The translations under genes were made by a program, and so were the position numbers. Below the pieces are notes generated by a model. It did no database searches and was not told where the DNA came from. It saw only the letters and a program-made list of their open reading frames with translations. A stretch of 20,089 nucleotides of DNA from a virus. The DNA lies in IMG/VR virus record IMGVR_UViG_3300010299_000087, positions 1 to 20,089 of that record, one strand, 5' to 3'. Below are positions 520 through 14,070 of the stretch, piece after piece. The number at the start of each line of letters is the position of its first letter. The stretch's first letter is position 1.

Positions 520-2133
520 TTAAACTCTGTAAGTTCCTACTATTGTCACATCGTTATTGGCAGTTCCAGTGCCTACATCAGAAACACTAGTTCCTGTGAT
601 ACTTCCTGTGCTTCCTTGATTTTGGTATAAGTAAATAAGTTTAGTATTGTGTACTACTTGAGCCCCTGCCGGAGGATTAGCTGACCAATTTTGTGTTAGA
701 ACAGAAACTGAATAATTCAAATAAATATCAGAATTACAAGTAAATGGCAAACCTCCAATAGCAACATTTCCCGTAGCCGCCCCTGGGCCACTTCCTTTAT
801 TCACAGAGTCTGTCGCTAATCTAATATAAACATGTACAGTATTTCCTATCTTCGTATACCTACCTTTTGTAGAGACAGAATAACCTACGCTGGTGAAATT
901 AGTACCTGTGGTAACCAAAGTTGGCGTAAAAGTCCCTTCCTCATAATCGTCGAGTAGCTCACTCGTACCAGTTCCAGAAGTCGCAGAAAAGTCGATACCT
1001 TTGCCGGATGTGCCTATGACTAAGTTGCCTGTGTTGACTTCTACATTCCCGGAAGAGTCAATCACCATCTTTTCGGAAGAATCACCAGCACTATTCAATG
1101 CTGTTCTAAATACCAAATCTGTACCGATATTAGATGCTTCTGTTCCAGTAGTAGAATATTTTGCAACAATTCCTGCTCTCATCCCAGAACCATGTCCAGC
1201 AGTTTTTCCAAATGAAATTGCACCGATTATATTTCCAAATGTGTATGAACCAGTTGGATTTAACAATTGGAGATTTGAAAATGTATTCAGTACCGTGTTG
1301 TTTGTTGCAACAGTTCTGGAAATTTGCAGTGAAGTGTTTGGCGAACTAGTCCCAATCCCGACATTGCCTCCATTAAAATATGAATTTCCGTAGCTTGAAA
1401 GAAAAACGTTATTTGTTCCAGCATTGTTTGCGACTGTTAAAATACCCCCAAGCGATTGACTCACATAAACAGAAGCTAAAATAGTGTCTGAGGAGTCTGT
1501 TACTGCGAATGCAGTCGAGCTACCAGAAACCTTTTTGACTACAAGAGGTTGAGCTGGCGAACTCGTTCCGATGCCGACTTTGCCGGAAGAATCAATCACT
1601 ATCCGATCATCACCACCAACATCGAACTTGAGTTTGTGGCTGTCGCTTGTGTCGGTGTAGATTCGGGCGCGTTCCACTGACTGATTTTGAAATGCTAAAA
1701 TAGGATCATAGGTAGTTGTTCCAGAATTTCCAACGTCTGCATTTATGGTCCAAGGTGCTAAACTTTGACATGAATAACCAGCAGTGGCCCCCATTGATAT
1801 AAATTCTTGACCTCTCGTCCCTACAGTATTACTCAGAACAGCTCCGTCATTGTGAACAAATAACTGCATGAAATTTACATTTCCCAAATTAGTCCCGTCA
1901 AAAGCCTTGAGAGAGTAATAATTCTGATAGCCGTAAGCAGGTATGCTGGATGTAAAATCAACAGTGCTATCATAAAAAGCTTCAATGAGCCCTGTAGGCT
2001 TATTTGTAAGACTGTGCGGAGAAGCATTCACATGCCAAACCCATGACATCTCAGCTATGTTTCGAATATCTTCTTGAGTATCAGCCGCGCTTGTGCTCAC
2101 GCCTGGTGTTTGAAAATCGTATGTTACTGCCAT
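520..2133 (-). CDS. Tail fibre / receptor-binding protein
   Basis: A 537-residue beta-rich protein directly after the tip gene, probably the receptor-binding fibre. Residues 1-60 (MAVTYDFQTPGVSTSAADTQ) may attach to the tail. Fibre repeats VGIGTSSP occur at residues 186-193 and 258-265, each after a Ser/Gly strand, and a related IDSSGNVEVNTGNLVIGT at about 358-375. These short repeats are typical of trimeric fibre shafts. A C-terminal module (LDDYEEGTFTPTL at 394-406, then GRYTKIGNTVHVYIRLA and IGGLPFTC) is a widespread fibre tip domain of about 140 residues. No intramolecular chaperone with the SDxRxK motif is present. ATG 2133 has GGGA 6 nt upstream. Confidence 0.9.
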   Translation of the reverse strand: MAVTYDFQTPGVSTSAADTQEDIRNIAEMSWVWHVNASPHSLTNKPTGLIEAFYDSTVDFTSSIPAYGYQNYYSLKAFDGTNLGNVNFMQLFVHNDGAVLSNTVGTRGQEFISMGATAGYSCQSLAPWTINADVGNSGTTTYDPILAFQNQSVERARIYTDTSDSHKLKFDVGGDDRIVIDSSGKVGIGTSSPAQPLVVKKVSGSSTAFAVTDSSDTILASVYVSQSLGGILTVANNAGTNNVFLSSYGNSYFNGGNVGIGTSSPNTSLQISRTVATNNTVLNTFSNLQLLNPTGSYTFGNIIGAISFGKTAGHGSGMRAGIVAKYSTTGTEASNIGTDLVFRTALNSAGDSSEKMVIDSSGNVEVNTGNLVIGTSGKGIDFSATSGTGTSELLDDYEEGTFTPTLVTTGTNFTSVGYSVSTKGRYTKIGNTVHVYIRLATDSVNKGSGPGAATGNVAIGGLPFTCNSDIYLNYSVSVLTQNWSANPPAGAQVVHNTKLIYLYQNQGSTGSITGTSVSDVGTGTANNDVTIVGTYRV

Positions 2134-2142
2134 ATCTTTCCC

Positions 2143-5100
2143 TTAATATCCAATGATAACATAGCTAAAAGTTTCGCCTACCTGTCCAACTCCGCTTGTG
2201 TTTATCACGTAAGCGTCAAAGCTTGTCGGCTCGTTTGTCAAATCCGCATACCCAATCAACGGAGTAGCCCCACCACTCGAAGGAGTTACAATCACAGAAG
2301 CGAATACATTATAACTTAAAATTGGTGTTACTGTAACGCTTCCACCTGCCCCCGTTGTGCCTGTTCCCGTCTCTTGGATCGGCTTCGCGTTAACAGTGAT
2401 TGTAACGCTGTTCAATCTAGCAATCGTCGTACCGTCTCCGCTATACTGAAAAAGCACTTTCACATATCTAAAGCCTGTCACGACCAATTGCAAATCAACA
2501 GGATTTACATAGTCTGTATAGCTTACACCGTCTTTACTTACACTGATTGTAACATCAGTAGTCAAAGTGCCTTCAATCGCCGTTTGGGACTGCGTTACTG
2601 TTATCTTACCGTTTCCAAGTTGAACGCCTAAATCAATCACTCTTTCGTAACTGCTTCCGCTTGTGCTGGTCGGCTGAACAAAATACGTATACCCTGCGTC
2701 AATTTGATCCTGAACGCTCGTCCAACTGTTATTGCTATGCACCGTCTGCCATGCGGTCGTTGAAATCAACGGATAAACACCGCTCAATTCATAGCTCAAC
2801 CCTGTAGCAGTTCCGGCGGTAAAATCTGTATCGGTAGTAGTGCTTTGCAAAATAAAGTTAATAGAGTCATCGACTTCAAGTTCAATGCTCGCTGGAGTTG
2901 CAGACTCATTCCCACCAAAGCAAACCGCGCTGATATAGTATTTATAAGTCCCTGCGCTCGCTTCTTGATACGCATAAGTGGTTGTCTCACTCTCAGCAAT
3001 CAAAGTCGCGTTTGAGAAAGTTTCAGAACTCAAAGAGCGGTATATTTTGTAATATCGCACTCCGTGTTCTTGACGAGGAGAAGAGAAAGCAGGGCTTGTC
3101 CAACTTAACAACGCCGTCCCCTGCCTACTTTGACCGCTCAAATTTTGAGGTGTTCCAGGAGCGTTTATTGTGATTGTGACAGTGTCCTCTGTTGTTGAAT
3201 AATTTCCAGAAGTGTCTATAGCTTTGATCATATAGACATAAGATCCTGCTGTGAGCGCATCAATTGTAAAGGTTGTCCCATCGACAACATCAACAACACT
3301 TCCAGAAGCCCATGACGCCCCGACTCTTATTTCATATTTCCAAAGATCGGGAACTGTAACTTTACCCCAAGAAAGAAGAACATTTGTATCTTGAACTGTA
3401 CTCGTTAAATTGCTCACGTCTGGAGGTGGATTTGTTTTTCCTTGGACTGTGTGATTTGAAAGCGCAACCCATGCAGAAGTTTGCCCCTCTTTGGAAATAT
3501 GCCTAATCTGAAGTGCATATTCTTGTAAATCCTCAAGACCAGTCAGCTTAATCTGGGACTCTTCCGCAGGAACTGGTGCAATCATTTTCCAAGGGCCATC
3601 CGTGTCACCAGAGAGTTTGAATCTTGCTTGAAGATATGTTGCAGGTGCATACCTGCTTGAGCTGTAATTTGTTGTTATCAATATTCCTGAAACCAAAGAT
3701 CCGTCAGCGTCACGTTCTAGAACAAATTCATCTGAGCGTACATCTTTCACAACAGGCACAGGTGGAACTTTTCGAAAAACTTCAGGAGGAATCGTTATTG
3801 ATGAGGTGTACGTAGGTATCGCCTCACCATCAACAACAGAGTCAATATCAAAAGCTGGAACAGCCTGAATCTCTGCAATAAAATCTCCAGGCTCGTAAGT
3901 TATTTCTCTAATGACTACGTCCTGAACTTCTGAGTTTTCTTCACCAATCAAAACAAGATCACCTGCACCATAAGCACCAATTGAATCGGCTGGAGTCGTG
4001 ATTGTAAACAGAGTATTCTCATCTGTGCTTGCAACTGTCACAACTCGCTCAACAGTTGAACCGTCAGACTTTCTTACTCTCATTGTGTAATTAGTTGCTG
4101 TTGCTGTTGAGATCCCTCGATCAATCGTTACAGTGTCGATATAAGTCCCGTTATTTGTAACACTTGAAATTCTTGCAGATCCAAGCCCGATCAATGACGA
4201 GTCATGTTGAATCCCAACAAGATCACCTCTAGTGCAAACTAAATGATCAAGCTGTGATTTCCATTTGAAAATCTCAGGACGATTCAATCCAACTGCAAAA
4301 TGATAACGAGCAAGACGAAAAGCATGGTCAGAAGTAGTGACCCCAGGCAATTCAAGATCTTCAAACTTCGTTGCCGCTGTGTTTCCCGAACTACCATCAG
4401 CGTTATAGCCATCTCTGTAAACAATTCTCACCTCTTCCTGATATGGCTCAGAAGCCTCTGAATTTTTAAATCTGACTCTGAATGCGTGCGGTATCTCTTG
4501 ATAATTATAAACCGCTTCAAATGAATCTTTCACAATGTTTCTAGGGCCGAAAATTTGAACATAGGTGCTCTGTGTCTGATCTTCAATGACAGAGTATTTC
4601 CCGTCTTTCCAATACTTTGAAGCTCTTCCAACAGAGGCTATCATATCAAGCAAGTCACCTCTTACCATTTGCTCTTCAAGTACATAATCAAAGTATCTTG
4701 ATGCTGTGTTGTTTCTTCCGGCCCATGCCAAAAGTCCTGCATCGTCAACTCTTGTCGTTGCCAGCAGTGACTTTGCCGCTTGAGAAAATAGGACATTTGC
4801 AAATGCCCAAGCTGGATCTCTTGTTATTTGCTTTGTCCATGCACTGCCTGTATAAACAGGCTGTTTTGCTTCAACAATACAACTCAAGTTATCAATCACA
4901 CCGTTGAGCTGATTTGATGCTTTAATTCTCATGCAAATTGTCTTTGCGTACCGATCAACAACAGCGTCACCTGTTCTTATAGACCTGAGAGCAGTCCAAG
5001 TCGCAGAATCGCTGATATTCGAACTGGAATTGTCTGCTGTTGTTCGCCTGATTCTTACGTCATACTGATTCGCAGGTAGGCCCTCAACCCTGTATGATTT

Positions 5101-7062
5101 TCTGACAGTGCTTGTCGAAGCACCTGTGATGGTTCTCGATACTTTCCCACTTGATAAGACATTACCTACTACACCGCCGGATCTCTCGCCACCAATGATA
5201 TACAAATTGCCTTCAACAATTGCGCTTTGATGCCCTCGGACAGGATCAGACAAATCCGTTGAAAATGGTGATATAGGTGTTTTTCCAGAATAATAATAGT
5301 TGGTCGTACTGGAATAAACTTTTCCACTGAAGTTTGAACCGTTTGTTGTGCCACCACTAACCCAAGTTTCGTTATTATACCTAATCGCATCGAGATACCA
5401 ACCTAGCGCATAAGTACCATCAAGCTTTCGAAAAGAATAGTATTTACCGCTTCCAAAAATACTTGTCGTATTATAATAACCTGCTTGAATGCTAAATATA
5501 TTTTGATTAGGTGAAGTGCCGTTTGTTGTTCCACCAAAAATTAGAAGCTGATTATTCCCTTGGATAATTTGATGACCATACAAATTAACTAAAATACTGC
5601 CTGGATCTTGAATTGTTTCAGTTGTCCAAGAGTTCCCAGATATGTCATAGATGTATAATGTTTTTGTCGCAGAACCAGAACTGTTCAGCCCACCAAAAAC
5701 GCAAATCTGCCCAGCGACATTTGGGAAAACACCACAAGCCATGTCAGATCTTGCCTCTGGCATTGCAGTCAGACTGCTCCAGGTATTAGTTGCAGTGTTG
5801 TAAACCTCGCAACTACTAAGTGTTGTTCCTGCTCCTGATTTTCCACCGAACACATAGATGAGATTTCCAAGTGCAACACTTGCATGATGCGCTCTTGCAG
5901 TGCTCATGTTCGCTTTATTGGTCCAGTTACCTGTCGACTTGTCATACTCTTCAGAAGTGTTTAAATAATTTCCCCCTGAATCAATACCACCACAAGCAAA
6001 AATCTTTGTAGTCCCGTAACTATCAGCTCTAAAGTAACTCCTTTCAATATTCAAGGAGTTCTCTACTGTCTCTTCTAAATCGTCCGCTCCAAATGGATAC
6101 CAAACGCTACCTGAAGTCGGCTTGTACTCAATCTCAAAGTCAACGCTGACAGCTTCCTTTGCTCCAGTTGAAGTGTTAAAACTCACAAGAGATGGAAAGC
6201 TGATATCAACAATCATTCCAGTCGTGTTTGTTGTTGTGGTGTTGGTCCTGTAGCCATCAGATTCATTCAAGCTTTGATTGACTGTTGCTTCGTTGATGTT
6301 TGGAAACCATTTTGACTTTTCGTCAGAAGTCATATCAGCAAATCTAGTGGTGTAATCAATTTCGATATCTTCATAAGTGCTTAAAGCATTTTCGCCTATC
6401 TTGATGTCAGATATTTCTAGGTCACCTGGATCTTCTTCAAATCCAACACAAAAAATCATTCTCAGGTATTGCTCATTGTTCTCAAGTTCTGTGTAAGGAA
6501 CTGCCGCCAACGGTGGATACATTTTCACTTTCCCGAAAATGAAAGGAACCGTACCATAAGGAACAAGACGGTTTTGAACTCCTGTAATGCTTTGCATTGG
6601 TGCGTCAGAGCTAAAACCTGTGTTTTCTTGTGCTCTTTGTCTGGGAGGTGGAACAATTGCATTCATTACAAGAGAAGCACCATAACCGACAATCGCAGAT
6701 CCAACGCCAGCGGCCCATGATGCGCCAGTGCCGAAAAGCTTTGCGCCTACCTTAGCACCAAAAGCATTTGTTGCGGCCATGACAGCAATTTGAGCGATGA
6801 TCCTTAAAGGATTCTTGTCATCACCCCCAGACTGAGGAACTACTCCAACAGTCACATATGTGTCAGATCTTGGAGTAACTAGGTGCCAATGTTGAGGCTT
6901 AATATGAGTATCATTGATGCAGACATATGCTTGAGCGTATTCAGGGACTTCTCCAAGGTGGAAATCAAGTATCTCTTTGAGTGTTCTGCCTGATTCAATC
7001 TCAAGACATTTTTTTGCAGTTGAGAAAGCTTTTGGAGTGATTATTAAGTCAAGCTTCCCCAT
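2143..7062 (-). CDS. Tail-tip host-specificity protein, gpI-gpJ (TipJ-type) fusion with internal Kelch propeller
   Basis: A 1639-residue tip protein that forms the tail's central fibre hub. Residues 1-85 are a gpI-like beta-grasp domain (LKEILDFHLGEVPEYAQAYV). Residues about 86-140 are hydrophobic and Gly/Ala-rich, as in lambda gpI/gpJ. Residues about 155-335 start the gpJ core. Residues about 340-640 are a Kelch propeller insert. The core resumes with GLPANQYDVRIRRTT (about 662-676) and the phage tail 3-like region WAFANVLF..FDYVLEEQMVRG (about 752-812). Three FN3-like modules follow (about 1100-1210, 1213-1300 and 1302-1397), then a beta-rich C-terminus likely to face the host. I chose ATG 7062 (AAGGGG upstream) over the TTG at 7107, which has no ribosome binding site. 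Lambda gpJ has 1132 residues, so this is clearly enlarged. Confidence 0.93.
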   Translation of the reverse strand: MGKLDLIITPKAFSTAKKCLEIESGRTLKEILDFHLGEVPEYAQAYVCINDTHIKPQHWHLVTPRSDTYVTVGVVPQSGGDDKNPLRIIAQIAVMAATNAFGAKVGAKLFGTGASWAAGVGSAIVGYGASLVMNAIVPPPRQRAQENTGFSSDAPMQSITGVQNRLVPYGTVPFIFGKVKMYPPLAAVPYTELENNEQYLRMIFCVGFEEDPGDLEISDIKIGENALSTYEDIEIDYTTRFADMTSDEKSKWFPNINEATVNQSLNESDGYRTNTTTTNTTGMIVDISFPSLVSFNTSTGAKEAVSVDFEIEYKPTSGSVWYPFGADDLEETVENSLNIERSYFRADSYGTTKIFACGGIDSGGNYLNTSEEYDKSTGNWTNKANMSTARAHHASVALGNLIYVFGGKSGAGTTLSSCEVYNTATNTWSSLTAMPEARSDMACGVFPNVAGQICVFGGLNSSGSATKTLYIYDISGNSWTTETIQDPGSILVNLYGHQIIQGNNQLLIFGGTTNGTSPNQNIFSIQAGYYNTTSIFGSGKYYSFRKLDGTYALGWYLDAIRYNNETWVSGGTTNGSNFSGKVYSSTTNYYYSGKTPISPFSTDLSDPVRGHQSAIVEGNLYIIGGERSGGVVGNVLSSGKVSRTITGASTSTVRKSYRVEGLPANQYDVRIRRTTADNSSSNISDSATWTALRSIRTGDAVVDRYAKTICMRIKASNQLNGVIDNLSCIVEAKQPVYTGSAWTKQITRDPAWAFANVLFSQAAKSLLATTRVDDAGLLAWAGRNNTASRYFDYVLEEQMVRGDLLDMIASVGRASKYWKDGKYSVIEDQTQSTYVQIFGPRNIVKDSFEAVYNYQEIPHAFRVRFKNSEASEPYQEEVRIVYRDGYNADGSSGNTAATKFEDLELPGVTTSDHAFRLARYHFAVGLNRPEIFKWKSQLDHLVCTRGDLVGIQHDSSLIGLGSARISSVTNNGTYIDTVTIDRGISTATATNYTMRVRKSDGSTVERVVTVASTDENTLFTITTPADSIGAYGAGDLVLIGEENSEVQDVVIREITYEPGDFIAEIQAVPAFDIDSVVDGEAIPTYTSSITIPPEVFRKVPPVPVVKDVRSDEFVLERDADGSLVSGILITTNYSSSRYAPATYLQARFKLSGDTDGPWKMIAPVPAEESQIKLTGLEDLQEYALQIRHISKEGQTSAWVALSNHTVQGKTNPPPDVSNLTSTVQDTNVLLSWGKVTVPDLWKYEIRVGASWASGSVVDVVDGTTFTIDALTAGSYVYMIKAIDTSGNYSTTEDTVTITINAPGTPQNLSGQSRQGTALLSWTSPAFSSPRQEHGVRYYKIYRSLSSETFSNATLIAESETTTYAYQEASAGTYKYYISAVCFGGNESATPASIELEVDDSINFILQSTTTDTDFTAGTATGLSYELSGVYPLISTTAWQTVHSNNSWTSVQDQIDAGYTYFVQPTSTSGSSYERVIDLGVQLGNGKITVTQSQTAIEGTLTTDVTISVSKDGVSYTDYVNPVDLQLVVTGFRYVKVLFQYSGDGTTIARLNSVTITVNAKPIQETGTGTTGAGGSVTVTPILSYNVFASVIVTPSSGGATPLIGYADLTNEPTSFDAYVINTSGVGQVGETFSYVIIGY
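2872..3426 (-). other. Tandem FN3 domains of the tip protein
   Basis: Two clear fibronectin type III modules. The first has VSNLTSTVQDTNVLLSWGKV, KYEIRV and SYVYMIKAIDTSGNYS. The second has TPQNLSGQSRQGTALLSWTS, YYKIYRS and TYKYYISAVCFGGNES. Tip proteins of the gpJ type often carry FN3 domains in this place, probably as spacers or for weak sugar binding. A more divergent third copy precedes them. Confidence 0.85.
5146..6045 (-). repeat. Six Kelch-type repeats (beta-propeller domain) inside the tip protein
   Basis: Double-glycine strands occur at residues 358-359 (FACGG), 406-407 (VFGG), 457-458 (VFGG), 510-511 (IFGG), 570-571 (VSGG) and 624-625 (IIGG), with spacings of 48, 51, 53, 60 and 54. 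The first three are followed by the Kelch Tyr-x6-Trp pattern: YDKSTGNW, YNTATNTW and YDISGNSW. The repeats are divergent at protein level, so this is an old fold and not a recent nucleotide expansion. Six GG motifs suggest six blades. Confidence 0.88.
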
Positions 7063-10764: not shown

Positions 10765-11172
10765 TTATGACTCCGCTCGACTCAGATTACCTGTGCCAGT
10801 GAACGTAATTGAGGCAGTCGCTAACTCTCCAACTGACCCGTTTATAGGCTGGTAACTTTCAAGAAAAGCATTTCCAGTGTAAGAAGGATTTGAAGAGCTT
10901 ACTGCTGAACTTGTTGGACGTATCTCAATTGCCACACTAGTTCCGACCAAAGGAAACAAAACCGAGTCAATTGAACTTGAAGCATAATCTTGGTTAAGCT
11001 CAAGCGTTAAAGTCCATTCTTTCAATCCTGCTACTCTGGATCTTGAAGTGTCTCCAAAAGCAGTATCCTCAAGAAGTTCTGCACTATAATCAATAGTTGC
11101 ACTTGTAAAGTGTGAGCTGTAATCAATTGTCGCTAGTTCTACGTAACAATCTGTCAAAGCTAAAGTTGCCAT
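10765..11172 (-). CDS. Major tail (tube) protein
   Basis: A 135-residue single-domain tube subunit. The family pattern is plain: DYSAELLEDTAFGDTSRSRV (residues 28-47), then GLKEWTLTLELNQDY, FPLVGTSVAIEIRPTSSAV, and SYQPINGSVGELATASITFT near the C-terminus. Tail tubes are stacked hexameric rings of such beta-sandwich proteins around the tape measure. ATG 11172 has AAGGGG 6 nt upstream. It sits between its longer paralogue and the tail assembly chaperone, which is the normal place for the tube gene. Because it is the short canonical form, I regard it as the probable main tube protein. Confidence 0.87.
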   Translation of the reverse strand: MATLALTDCYVELATIDYSSHFTSATIDYSAELLEDTAFGDTSRSRVAGLKEWTLTLELNQDYASSSIDSVLFPLVGTSVAIEIRPTSSAVSSSNPSYTGNAFLESYQPINGSVGELATASITFTGTGNLSRAES

Positions 11173-11185
11173 TTTTTCCCCTTAT

Positions 11186-11914
11186 TTAAACAATTCCAAA
11201 AACACAAACAACATTAAAAGAGGGGGTTGTTCCCCCGATATTCAAACGAAAACGCCAATAATCATCAGTCACCGCACCATCAACACTCAAAATCTGAGAA
11301 GTCACACCAGTTGCCTGTGTGAACGTGATTTGATCTGTGGTGCTGGTAAATCCTGAGTTATCATCACTCTGGACTATCACATCAAGAGTTGGACTTGTGC
11401 CACTCACAGAAAGCACATGAATAGCGGCGTACAAAGTTTGACCGGCTGATAACGCTCCAAGCTGAAAGCCTGTACTGTCAACGCTAAATGTGGCAGTATC
11501 GTTATACTCAACTTGCCCCCTCACAAGTGGGCTTGTTGATTCTCCAGTCACAGAAAACCCGAAAAGTTCACCAATAGAACCACTCGGCGAGTACATGCCA
11601 GTCAAGCAATCAAAAAAGTAAGCTAAACTTCCAACAGTTGTCGCTACTGGTGCGACTGTCACAGGCCATTTTGAACCATGTATCTGGTTGTACATGATGT
11701 CATCAATTCCACCATCCGCAGGATCAAAGTATCCCTCACCTGCAAGAGTCGTGTTTTTAAGTCCTGCAACCCTTGTCCGTGAGTCATCACATAGAGTCGT
11801 ATCCTCTAAAATGTCTGCACTGTGATCCAAAGACACAGCATTAAAATCACCGCAAACCGAATACGGTCCAAACCAAAAACCGATCCCTGAGCCACCAACT
11901 ATCTGAGTTGCCAT
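11186..11914 (-). CDS. Tail-tube paralogue with extra C-terminal domain
   Basis: A 242-residue protein whose first 133 or so residues are paralogous to the next gene. Shared segments are DHSADILEDTTLCDDSRTRV (residues 30-49) and a later Y-x-P-x-GSIGEL..SVT..L-x-R block (residues 108-132). This is the tail-tube protein pattern. Residues about 135-242 form a separate beta-sandwich-like domain (ATFSVDSTGFQLGALSAGQT, then LDVIVQSDDNSGF and DDYWRFRLNIGG) absent from the paralogue. ATG 11914 has AGGGG 6-7 nt upstream, almost the same leader as the paralogue. It could be the major tube protein with an exposed decoration, a minor tube protein or a distal-tube variant; which of the two genes is the main one cannot be decided here. 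Confidence 0.8.
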   Translation of the reverse strand: MATQIVGGSGIGFWFGPYSVCGDFNAVSLDHSADILEDTTLCDDSRTRVAGLKNTTLAGEGYFDPADGGIDDIMYNQIHGSKWPVTVAPVATTVGSLAYFFDCLTGMYSPSGSIGELFGFSVTGESTSPLVRGQVEYNDTATFSVDSTGFQLGALSAGQTLYAAIHVLSVSGTSPTLDVIVQSDDNSGFTSTTDQITFTQATGVTSQILSVDGAVTDDYWRFRLNIGGTTPSFNVVCVFGIV

Positions 11915-12803: not shown

Positions 12804-13123
12804 TAGATATTGTCCTCTGTGCAAAGCAAAATCAGATACTTGTTGATTTGCCGGTGATTCAAAATGCTTTCAATATTGTAATACCTGTTTTTAAAACAGA
12901 CTCGCATTTTCCCAGTGATGCCCTCTTGATACCTCAAGGTGATTTTGTGCGAAATCTGCAAGTTTCTTTGATCGGCAGTGAAGTTCTCGCGACCTGTTAC
13001 CGGCTCAATTGAGCAATATACAGACTTGTGCAACTCCCAGGAGTTTTCCTCTTCTCCGAATGAGTTTACTGTACCTGTGAGCTTTTCGATTCGTGCTCTA
13101 TGTCTCAATCTTCCTGAGATCAT
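12803..13123 (-). CDS. Head-tail joining protein (phage_H_T_join / SPP1 gp16-like stopper)
   Basis: A 106-residue neck protein. The family pattern is clear: an N-terminal LRHRARIEKLTGTVNSFGEE segment, then W at residue 29, CSIEPVTGRENFTADQ (family 'a-x-I-x-P-hydrophobic-x-G-x-E'), an SHKITLRYQEGIT strand pair and a C-terminal RYYNIESILN. These proteins form a ring under the adaptor and close the head after packaging. The length is normal. ATG 13123 overlaps the adaptor stop (ATGA), and its TAA overlaps the next start as TAATG, so it is coupled on both sides. Confidence 0.88.
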   Translation of the reverse strand: MISGRLRHRARIEKLTGTVNSFGEEENSWELHKSVYCSIEPVTGRENFTADQRNLQISHKITLRYQEGITGKMRVCFKNRYYNIESILNHRQINKYLILLCTEDNI

Positions 13124-14070
13124 TCGTGCCTGTCCCAGTTTCGAAAAGGTGCCAGTAAAGACTCAAAAGTAAAAGGAACATGATTTTGATTCATTGGTGA
13201 TGTTCTTTCTCTGTTCTCATAAAGATGCGCAAGCATAATCAGAGTTGCATACTTGATACCTTCTGGCACATCTGAAGCACTGCCATATCCTGCAACATAA
13301 ATGATTTCTACAGGGCTGAAAGTATCAGAATATGCTATTGCGGAAGGCCATGACTGACCCTGTGCCGGCTGAATTCTAGCAGGTTCGCTATCAGAATCGA
13401 GTTGATAAAGTGAACTACTCAAAGTCTGTTGCACGTTCTCAGTATCATAATATTTTATGCTTGTGATGCTCTGAACTGGAGAATACGGCAATTCAATCGC
13501 CCAATCTCGAAAATATGGAAGCTTCATCTTCCAGCTTTGAGTTATTAAGGCTCGTCCAATGTACTGCTCAACATGCTTCCTAGCCGCCTTGATTAGCAAG
13601 TTGATCTCTGGATCGACAGTAGAGTTTGAACTTGGTATTGTTGCTCCAAGTGATCCATCGGCGATATTATCGGTGTAACTCGTTGTTGTATTGTCTGCTA
13701 TTGTTGTGAGTAGCTTATAAGTGCTACCTCCGCCCTCAGTCCTGTAAATCTTGCGAGAAGTTACCGCAGAGCCGCCAACAGGAATATCTGTTATGGACAC
13801 TTGGCCGTCTGAAGAATTATCAGAAACAGTCACGTTATCGGAAGCAGTACCGCCTTCTGTTTCACCGTCAGCAGTAACAAAAGTCACTTTGTAGCTATAA
13901 ACAGCGTTATCAAGATTACCTGCACCGCCACCAGCAAGCGCAACAGTAGGAGCAGTTGGTGCTGGCTCTCCGTCCGAGTCATCAAGTCTCAAATGTCGCT
14001 TTGCCTCTGCAATTGTAATCGGCTCAGTGCTTGGCTCAGTGTAAATATTTAACGAGTCAAAAAAGATCAT
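13120..14070 (-). CDS. Head-tail adaptor (HK97 gp6/phage connector family) with inserted Ig/FN3-like domain
   Basis: Ring protein that binds below the portal and begins the neck. The connector fold is split. Residues 15-32 (EPITIAEAKRHLRLDDSD) form the usual first helix. Residues 152-316 (VDPEINLLIKAARKHVEQYI, then GRALITQSW and a late GIKYATLIMLAHLYENRE) form the remainder. Between them residues about 35-150 are a separate beta-rich module with NAVYSYKVTFVTADGETE, GSAVTSRKIYRTEGGGSTYK and TTTSYTDNIADGSLG, an FN3/Ig-like pattern. Typical family members have 100-200 residues; this one has 316 because of the insert. ATG 14070 overlaps the upstream stop, and the stop overlaps the next ATG, both as ATGA. 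Confidence 0.9.
   Translation of the reverse strand: MIFFDSLNIYTEPSTEPITIAEAKRHLRLDDSDGEPAPTAPTVALAGGGAGNLDNAVYSYKVTFVTADGETEGGTASDNVTVSDNSSDGQVSITDIPVGGSAVTSRKIYRTEGGGSTYKLLTTIADNTTTSYTDNIADGSLGATIPSSNSTVDPEINLLIKAARKHVEQYIGRALITQSWKMKLPYFRDWAIELPYSPVQSITSIKYYDTENVQQTLSSSLYQLDSDSEPARIQPAQGQSWPSAIAYSDTFSPVEIIYVAGYGSASDVPEGIKYATLIMLAHLYENRERTSPMNQNHVPFTFESLLAPFRNWDRHE
13621..13968 (-). other. Ig/FN3-like domain inserted in the adaptor
   Basis: Residues about 35-150 of the adaptor. The module starts with a Pro-rich linker (EPAPTAPTVALAG) and contains alternating hydrophobic strands, aromatic Tyr pairs (YSYKV, RKIYRT) and a closing TSYTDN strand. It ends with a Ser/Asn linker before the connector helix resumes. 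Domain boundaries are by eye. The position between the first two helices suggests a surface loop pointing away from the ring. Confidence 0.75.

Follow-up and report, generated by a model that had tools for sequence, protein, structure and literature searches.

Why should the tail-tip protein of a siphophage carry a predicted Kelch beta-propeller, how is it built into the protein, and what would it do there? The question arises from a DNA stretch of 20,089 bases (hereafter the window), which is the whole of IMG/VR record IMGVR_UViG_3300010299_000087 and probably represents a genome fragment. All genes in the window lie on the minus strand and belong to the packaging, head and tail modules of a siphophage: terminase, portal, protease, capsid, connectors, two tail-tube proteins, a chaperone, tape measure, tip genes, gpJ and a fibre-like gene. 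The portal, protease and capsid were named from sequence reading only, and the terminase was backed by a terminase search, in which the matches were only ~42% identical and spread over so many hosts that no host was called. The gene order at gpJ is tape measure, a 123-aa protein, DUF1833, NlpC/P60 and J, with the tape measure, L-like and K-like genes directly upstream of gpJ and the tail-fibre-like gene directly downstream.

The gpJ frame is open from an ATG at 7062 to the stop at 2143 (Table 1). It matches phrog_31, "central tail fiber J" (E = 5.3e-98), and the Pfam matches are FNIII-A_GpJ, Phage-tail_3 and fn3. With lambda gpJ it shares a homologous tip region including FNIII-A (PF24801), the phrog_31 core, the central-fibre C-terminus and a similar gene order. 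The best explanation takes the phage as one of a siphophage lineage related to lambda in its tail tip. A sequence-profile search of the PDB (E≤1) did not find lambda gpJ itself, and the comparison with lambda therefore rests on PF24801 and the published description. The N-terminus differs from that of lambda gpJ in resembling a gpI fusion: the first ~135 residues (6655-7062, minus strand) consist of a small domain and, after it, stretches that are hydrophobic and rich in glycine. No separate gpI gene was seen in the window, and no Pfam match supports the fusion.

Table 1. Coordinates of the tail-tip protein, its parts and the adjacent fibre-like protein; residue numbers are those of gpJ.
Feature	Window positions	Strand	Basis
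gpJ-type tail-tip protein, 1639 aa	2143-7062	minus	phrog_31 and Pfam matches, gene order
FNIII-A N-terminal half, residues 257-327	6082-6294	minus	PF24801 profile 3-71, E = 1.9e-10
Inserted six-bladed Kelch propeller (predicted), residues 328-641	5140-6081	minus	Kelch_1 E = 2.5e-26, models, absence in more distant homologues
FNIII-A C-terminal half, residues 642-696	4975-5139	minus	PF24801 profile 70-124, E = 3.6e-15
Most variable propeller part, blades 3-6, residues ~440-620	5203-5745	minus	Window vs L003: 34-44% aa identity (440-600), flanks 84-93%
Conserved hub after FNIII-A, residues 721-1000	4063-4902	minus	Phage-tail_3 6.5e-6; 89% aa identity to L003
gpJ C-terminal region, residues 1301-1639, separate exchange cassette	2146-3162	minus	96.8% aa identity to L004
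Fibre-like protein	520-2133	minus	Repeated GIGTSSP motifs; C-terminal part matches phrog_17970

The original prediction, made from the sequence alone, described six double-Gly Kelch strands at 48-60 residue spacing and three Tyr-x6-Trp signatures in one open frame at 5146-6045 (residues 340-639). All of these were found, the doublets at residues 358/359, 406/407, 457/458, 510/511, 570/571 and 624/625 and the signatures at Y373-W380, Y421-W428 and Y472-W479. The Kelch_1 score puts the repeats far beyond chance; Kelch_KLHDC2_KLHL20_DRC7 matched at 2.9e-23, and sequence matches in the PDB reached 9e-33. Structure prediction, which had been proposed as a check, gave a six-bladed propeller. For residues 140-800, AlphaFold2 gave a model (mean pLDDT 70, pTM 0.49; blades 1-3 mostly 81-96) that returned Kelch domains in Foldseek (E = 1e-18), and VIA-align superposed it on the Kelch domain of human NS1-BP with Z = 34.3 and an rmsd of 2.1 Å over 275 residues, covering the model range 193-503, which corresponds to gpJ residues 332-642. 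Modelled alone, the propeller reached a pTM of 0.80 and Z = 27.5 against Kelch structures; blades 5 and 6 had partly low pLDDT in the models. At the level of predicted structure, a six-bladed Kelch propeller is confirmed for residues ~328-641. The Kelch domains of NS1-BP, KLHDC2, KLHL12 and KEAP1 have the same six-bladed fold (Z 27-34) at ~15-24% identity; these eukaryotic domains are protein-binding adaptors of the host cell, and a shared function is not implied.

The prediction further held that the propeller was a loop insertion and not a terminal fusion, because the segments before and after it belonged to one core domain of gpJ. Both quoted segments are present, and the FNIII-A_GpJ profile is cut at position 70/71, its halves, scanned separately, matching on either side of the propeller. 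The two halves set the insert limits at 328-641 (window ~5140-6081); the predicted limits were correctly located and slightly too narrow. The flanks do form one domain cut at one loop, but that domain is the peripheral FNIII-A rather than the hub core. FNIII-A, an Ig-like domain, is in turn inserted on the hub, and the presence of the propeller inside it therefore gives the nesting hub > HDII-insertion > FNIII-A > Kelch. In one homologue (L016) the FNIII-A_GpJ match runs in one contiguous stretch. The published description of the lambda FNIII-A (residues 72-215) is that of an Ig-like domain and makes no mention of a propeller; the window FNIII-A has 314 extra residues. Judged by these profile matches, the propeller is a true internal insertion in one loop of one domain.

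Homologues lacking just this segment had been anticipated, and they were found among viral contigs, isolated phages and bacterial genome ORFs. Counted from residue 331, the loop has 16-32 residues in nine contigs of viral origin (L015-L023) and in two from bacterial genomes (L024 and L026), versus 320-335 in carriers. The gpJ proteins of eight isolated phages have 18-50 residues, counted from residue 323. Between the flanking profile matches, 10-20 residues were counted in eighteen ORFs of other bacterial genomes, several of them from the same genome (L090 and L091, with poorly anchored flanks, were left out). Overall, the more distant gpJ homologues, prophages included, mostly have 10-50 residues at the loop. 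Two homologues depart from this: L025 has 64 residues, and in L014 (5626-6033) the loop is occupied by a different insert of ~110 residues that matches no Pfam family.

The propeller is carried by 12 contigs, the window plus L002-L011 and L103; L012 is the same contig as L007, and L008 ends inside the propeller. Every carrier keeps the propeller as an open frame, and the Kelch framework residues are intact in the complete alleles compared. On the hub tree the six carrier representatives form one clade with 100/100 support, which makes one ancient gain the simplest reading; all 12 contigs belong to one uncultured clade. According to the original prediction, a segment carried by all close gpJ homologues would be a normal part of the family. 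All relatives found with a hub identity above ~50% do carry it, but more distant homologues are without it. Since all these close homologues have it, the propeller is a fixed feature of the clade and not a recent event.

All 12 carriers are metagenomic contigs, and none was found in isolate or genome collections. A tblastn search with the propeller against 50,697 phage records, in which distant Kelch domains could be missed, found 18 records, none with the match in gpJ by annotation. The three gpJ relatives in bacterial genome contigs were propeller-free at the loop where both flanks matched, and so were the gpJ matches from one phylum, in which 17 of 398 genomes gave a match. No integrase was found in the two longer carrier records.

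Comparisons between close relatives revealed that the propeller is the part of gpJ that differs most. In L004 versus L006 the propellers are 41% and the flanks 93% identical (Fisher p = 4e-62), and the C-terminal region is 99% identical over the 161 residues covered by L006. Between the window and L003 the values are 60% and 88% (p = 3e-19): blades 1-2 are 93% identical, identity then drops as listed in Table 1, and it recovers by ~620. A milder contrast, which needs no exchange, was seen between L011 and L103 (69% and 81%, p = 8e-5); here too identity was lowest around residues 440-600. Synonymous divergence (NG86 estimates, partly saturated and noisy) followed the same pattern: dS for L004/L006 was about 1.8 or saturated in the propeller versus 0.3-0.75 elsewhere, and it was also raised in the propeller for the window versus L003. 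The raised dS points to replacement, beyond fast amino-acid change alone, and whole or part propellers appear to have been replaced by recombination between near-identical phages. The variability has no clear preference for one propeller face. As to diversification by a DGR, a search for a reverse transcriptase (RVT_1) gave no match in four carrier records, two of them of 38-42 kb; these records may be incomplete.

A second mobile block was identified in the window at 1554-3192 (minus strand), spanning the gpJ C-terminal region and the start of the downstream fibre gene. It is 89.7% identical to L004, and ~90% identical to L004 and L007 alike, while the remainder of gpJ is much less similar (the hubs of the window and L004 are only 51% identical).

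We propose that the propeller, as the part that differs most among close relatives, is probably a module that touches the surface of the host cell and can be exchanged; where a tail tip has a variable, exchangeable module, it usually serves contact with the host surface. The original prediction likewise had the propeller contribute to host recognition or surface-glycan binding, a reading strengthened by the apparent exchange of propellers among phages that are otherwise almost identical. The best explanation, to which we give a probability of roughly 0.6, is that a Kelch propeller acquired once in an FNIII-A loop serves as an accessory host-surface-binding module whose specificity is retuned by allele exchange. 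A siphophage lineage would have gained the propeller once, in one FNIII-A loop of its tail-tip protein. Given the position of FNIII-A on the hub, the propeller would form an outer appendage that leaves the hub undisturbed. The expected gpJ trimer would place about three propellers around the tip cone, presumably surface-exposed; at a pTM of 0.49 the hub-context model does not fix their orientation and exposure. Most likely they would make an early, reversible contact with the host surface, either a glycan or an outer-membrane protein, and the C-terminal central fibre would make the final receptor contact. Specificity would be retuned when propeller alleles are swapped by recombination within the neighbouring FNIII-A and hub sequences. 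The last ~340 residues of gpJ, its classical receptor-binding end, are also a mobile cassette among the carriers, and the propeller is therefore not alone as a candidate. A bolder version, which we regard as doubtful, is that the clade moved a main variable specificity determinant of the lambda-like tip from the C-terminal fibre to the Kelch propeller on FNIII-A, with the loop acting as a general docking site for inserts; the last point draws on the different insert of L014.

The main rival places the propeller inside the virion, as a docking or stabilising part, for example one that anchors a side fibre or steadies the tip cone, without host contact. In lambda, FNIII-A contacts gpI (PMC10721106), which puts the domain close to further tip proteins. 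Binding proteins is a generic property of Kelch propellers, and the fibre-like gene follows directly downstream. An internal interface should stay conserved, however, and the propellers are 41% identical where the hubs are 93% identical; many gpJ proteins also function without one. We disfavour this explanation and consider it unlikely. Still less probable is an enzyme acting on surface sugars, galactose-oxidase-like or sialate-epimerase-like. The names of the Kelch_3 and Kelch_4 models ("galactose oxidase, central domain") and a weak NANM match suggest such an activity, but the latter scored 24.7 bits, under the Pfam cut-off of 45. Galactose oxidase has seven blades, and six are seen here. 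What stays invariant from one propeller allele to another is mostly the Kelch framework (GG, Tyr and Trp), with no evident conserved catalytic set.

The rapid change of the propeller relative to the rest of gpJ, together with the mild contrast in L011/L103, could also be read as that of a neutral passenger, weakly constrained and diverging fast because it has little function. We rate this as improbable as the enzyme: the frame is open in all 12 carriers, the framework is intact in the complete alleles compared, dN/dS is clearly under 1 wherever dS could be measured (e.g. L004/L007), and the raised dS indicates exchange rather than decay. The purely metagenomic origin of the carriers would fit an assembly or annotation artefact in a chimeric contig. 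This was refuted by independent contigs, as the same in-frame junctions occur in twelve contigs from several datasets and three lineages with hubs ~50-55% identical.

The accessory surface-binding module has precedents. In the evolved Dit and Tal proteins of siphophages of Gram-positive hosts, CBMs are inserted in loops, and some were shown to bind the host (PMC7291167). The shared principle is an accessory module in a loop of a tail-tip structural protein whose core stays intact, as seen here in the split FNIII-A and the short loops of homologues. The inserts differ: CBMs in the Dit galectin or Tal gp27-like domains there, and a Kelch domain, whose binding we infer, in a gpJ-type FNIII-A here. 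A Pfam profile search of gpJ gave no CBM match at E≤1. By analogy, the propeller is best explained as a Kelch version of the evolved Dit/Tal principle, which would extend the loop-inserted adhesion module from Gram-positive-host siphophages to a lambda-type hub, with the FNIII-A loop as a natural site of tolerance. It also predicts that propeller alleles set host range in the carrier phages.

Beta-propellers and Kelch proteins occur in other phages. The receptor-binding protein of phi11 has a five-bladed propeller (PMC4901313), located between stem and tower of a separate baseplate protein, outside the hub. The CBB virion contains a Kelch protein (PMC5259590), and in CBB, PhiPA3, Jimmer and phiERICV the Kelch fold occurs in separate genes or in domains of other proteins (in phiERICV as repeats in a presumed tail-fibre gene); none was found inside gpJ. 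Loop-inserted adhesion domains and Kelch domains in phages are thus both already known. The open-licence literature and phage records searched yielded no Kelch propeller in a gpJ-type FNIII-A that is exchanged between near-identical phages; in that literature Kelch is a fold not described at this hub-loop position. It is one more case of Kelch domains being recruited into phage tail proteins, which has happened repeatedly. In an unrelated uncultured phage (L060, 3112-7539), a 1476-aa phrog_376 tail protein includes a Kelch region, a separate recruitment.

Two further observations concern other virion genes of the window. The gp6-like head-tail connector (13120-14070, minus strand) appears to hold an Ig-like insert at residues ~36-155: its ends match connector families and its middle matches parts of the unrelated virion proteins phrog_511 and phrog_752. 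At 10765-11914 (minus strand) there are two adjacent related major tail proteins with 36% identity over 114 residues, the longer of which (11186-11914) has a C-terminal extension.
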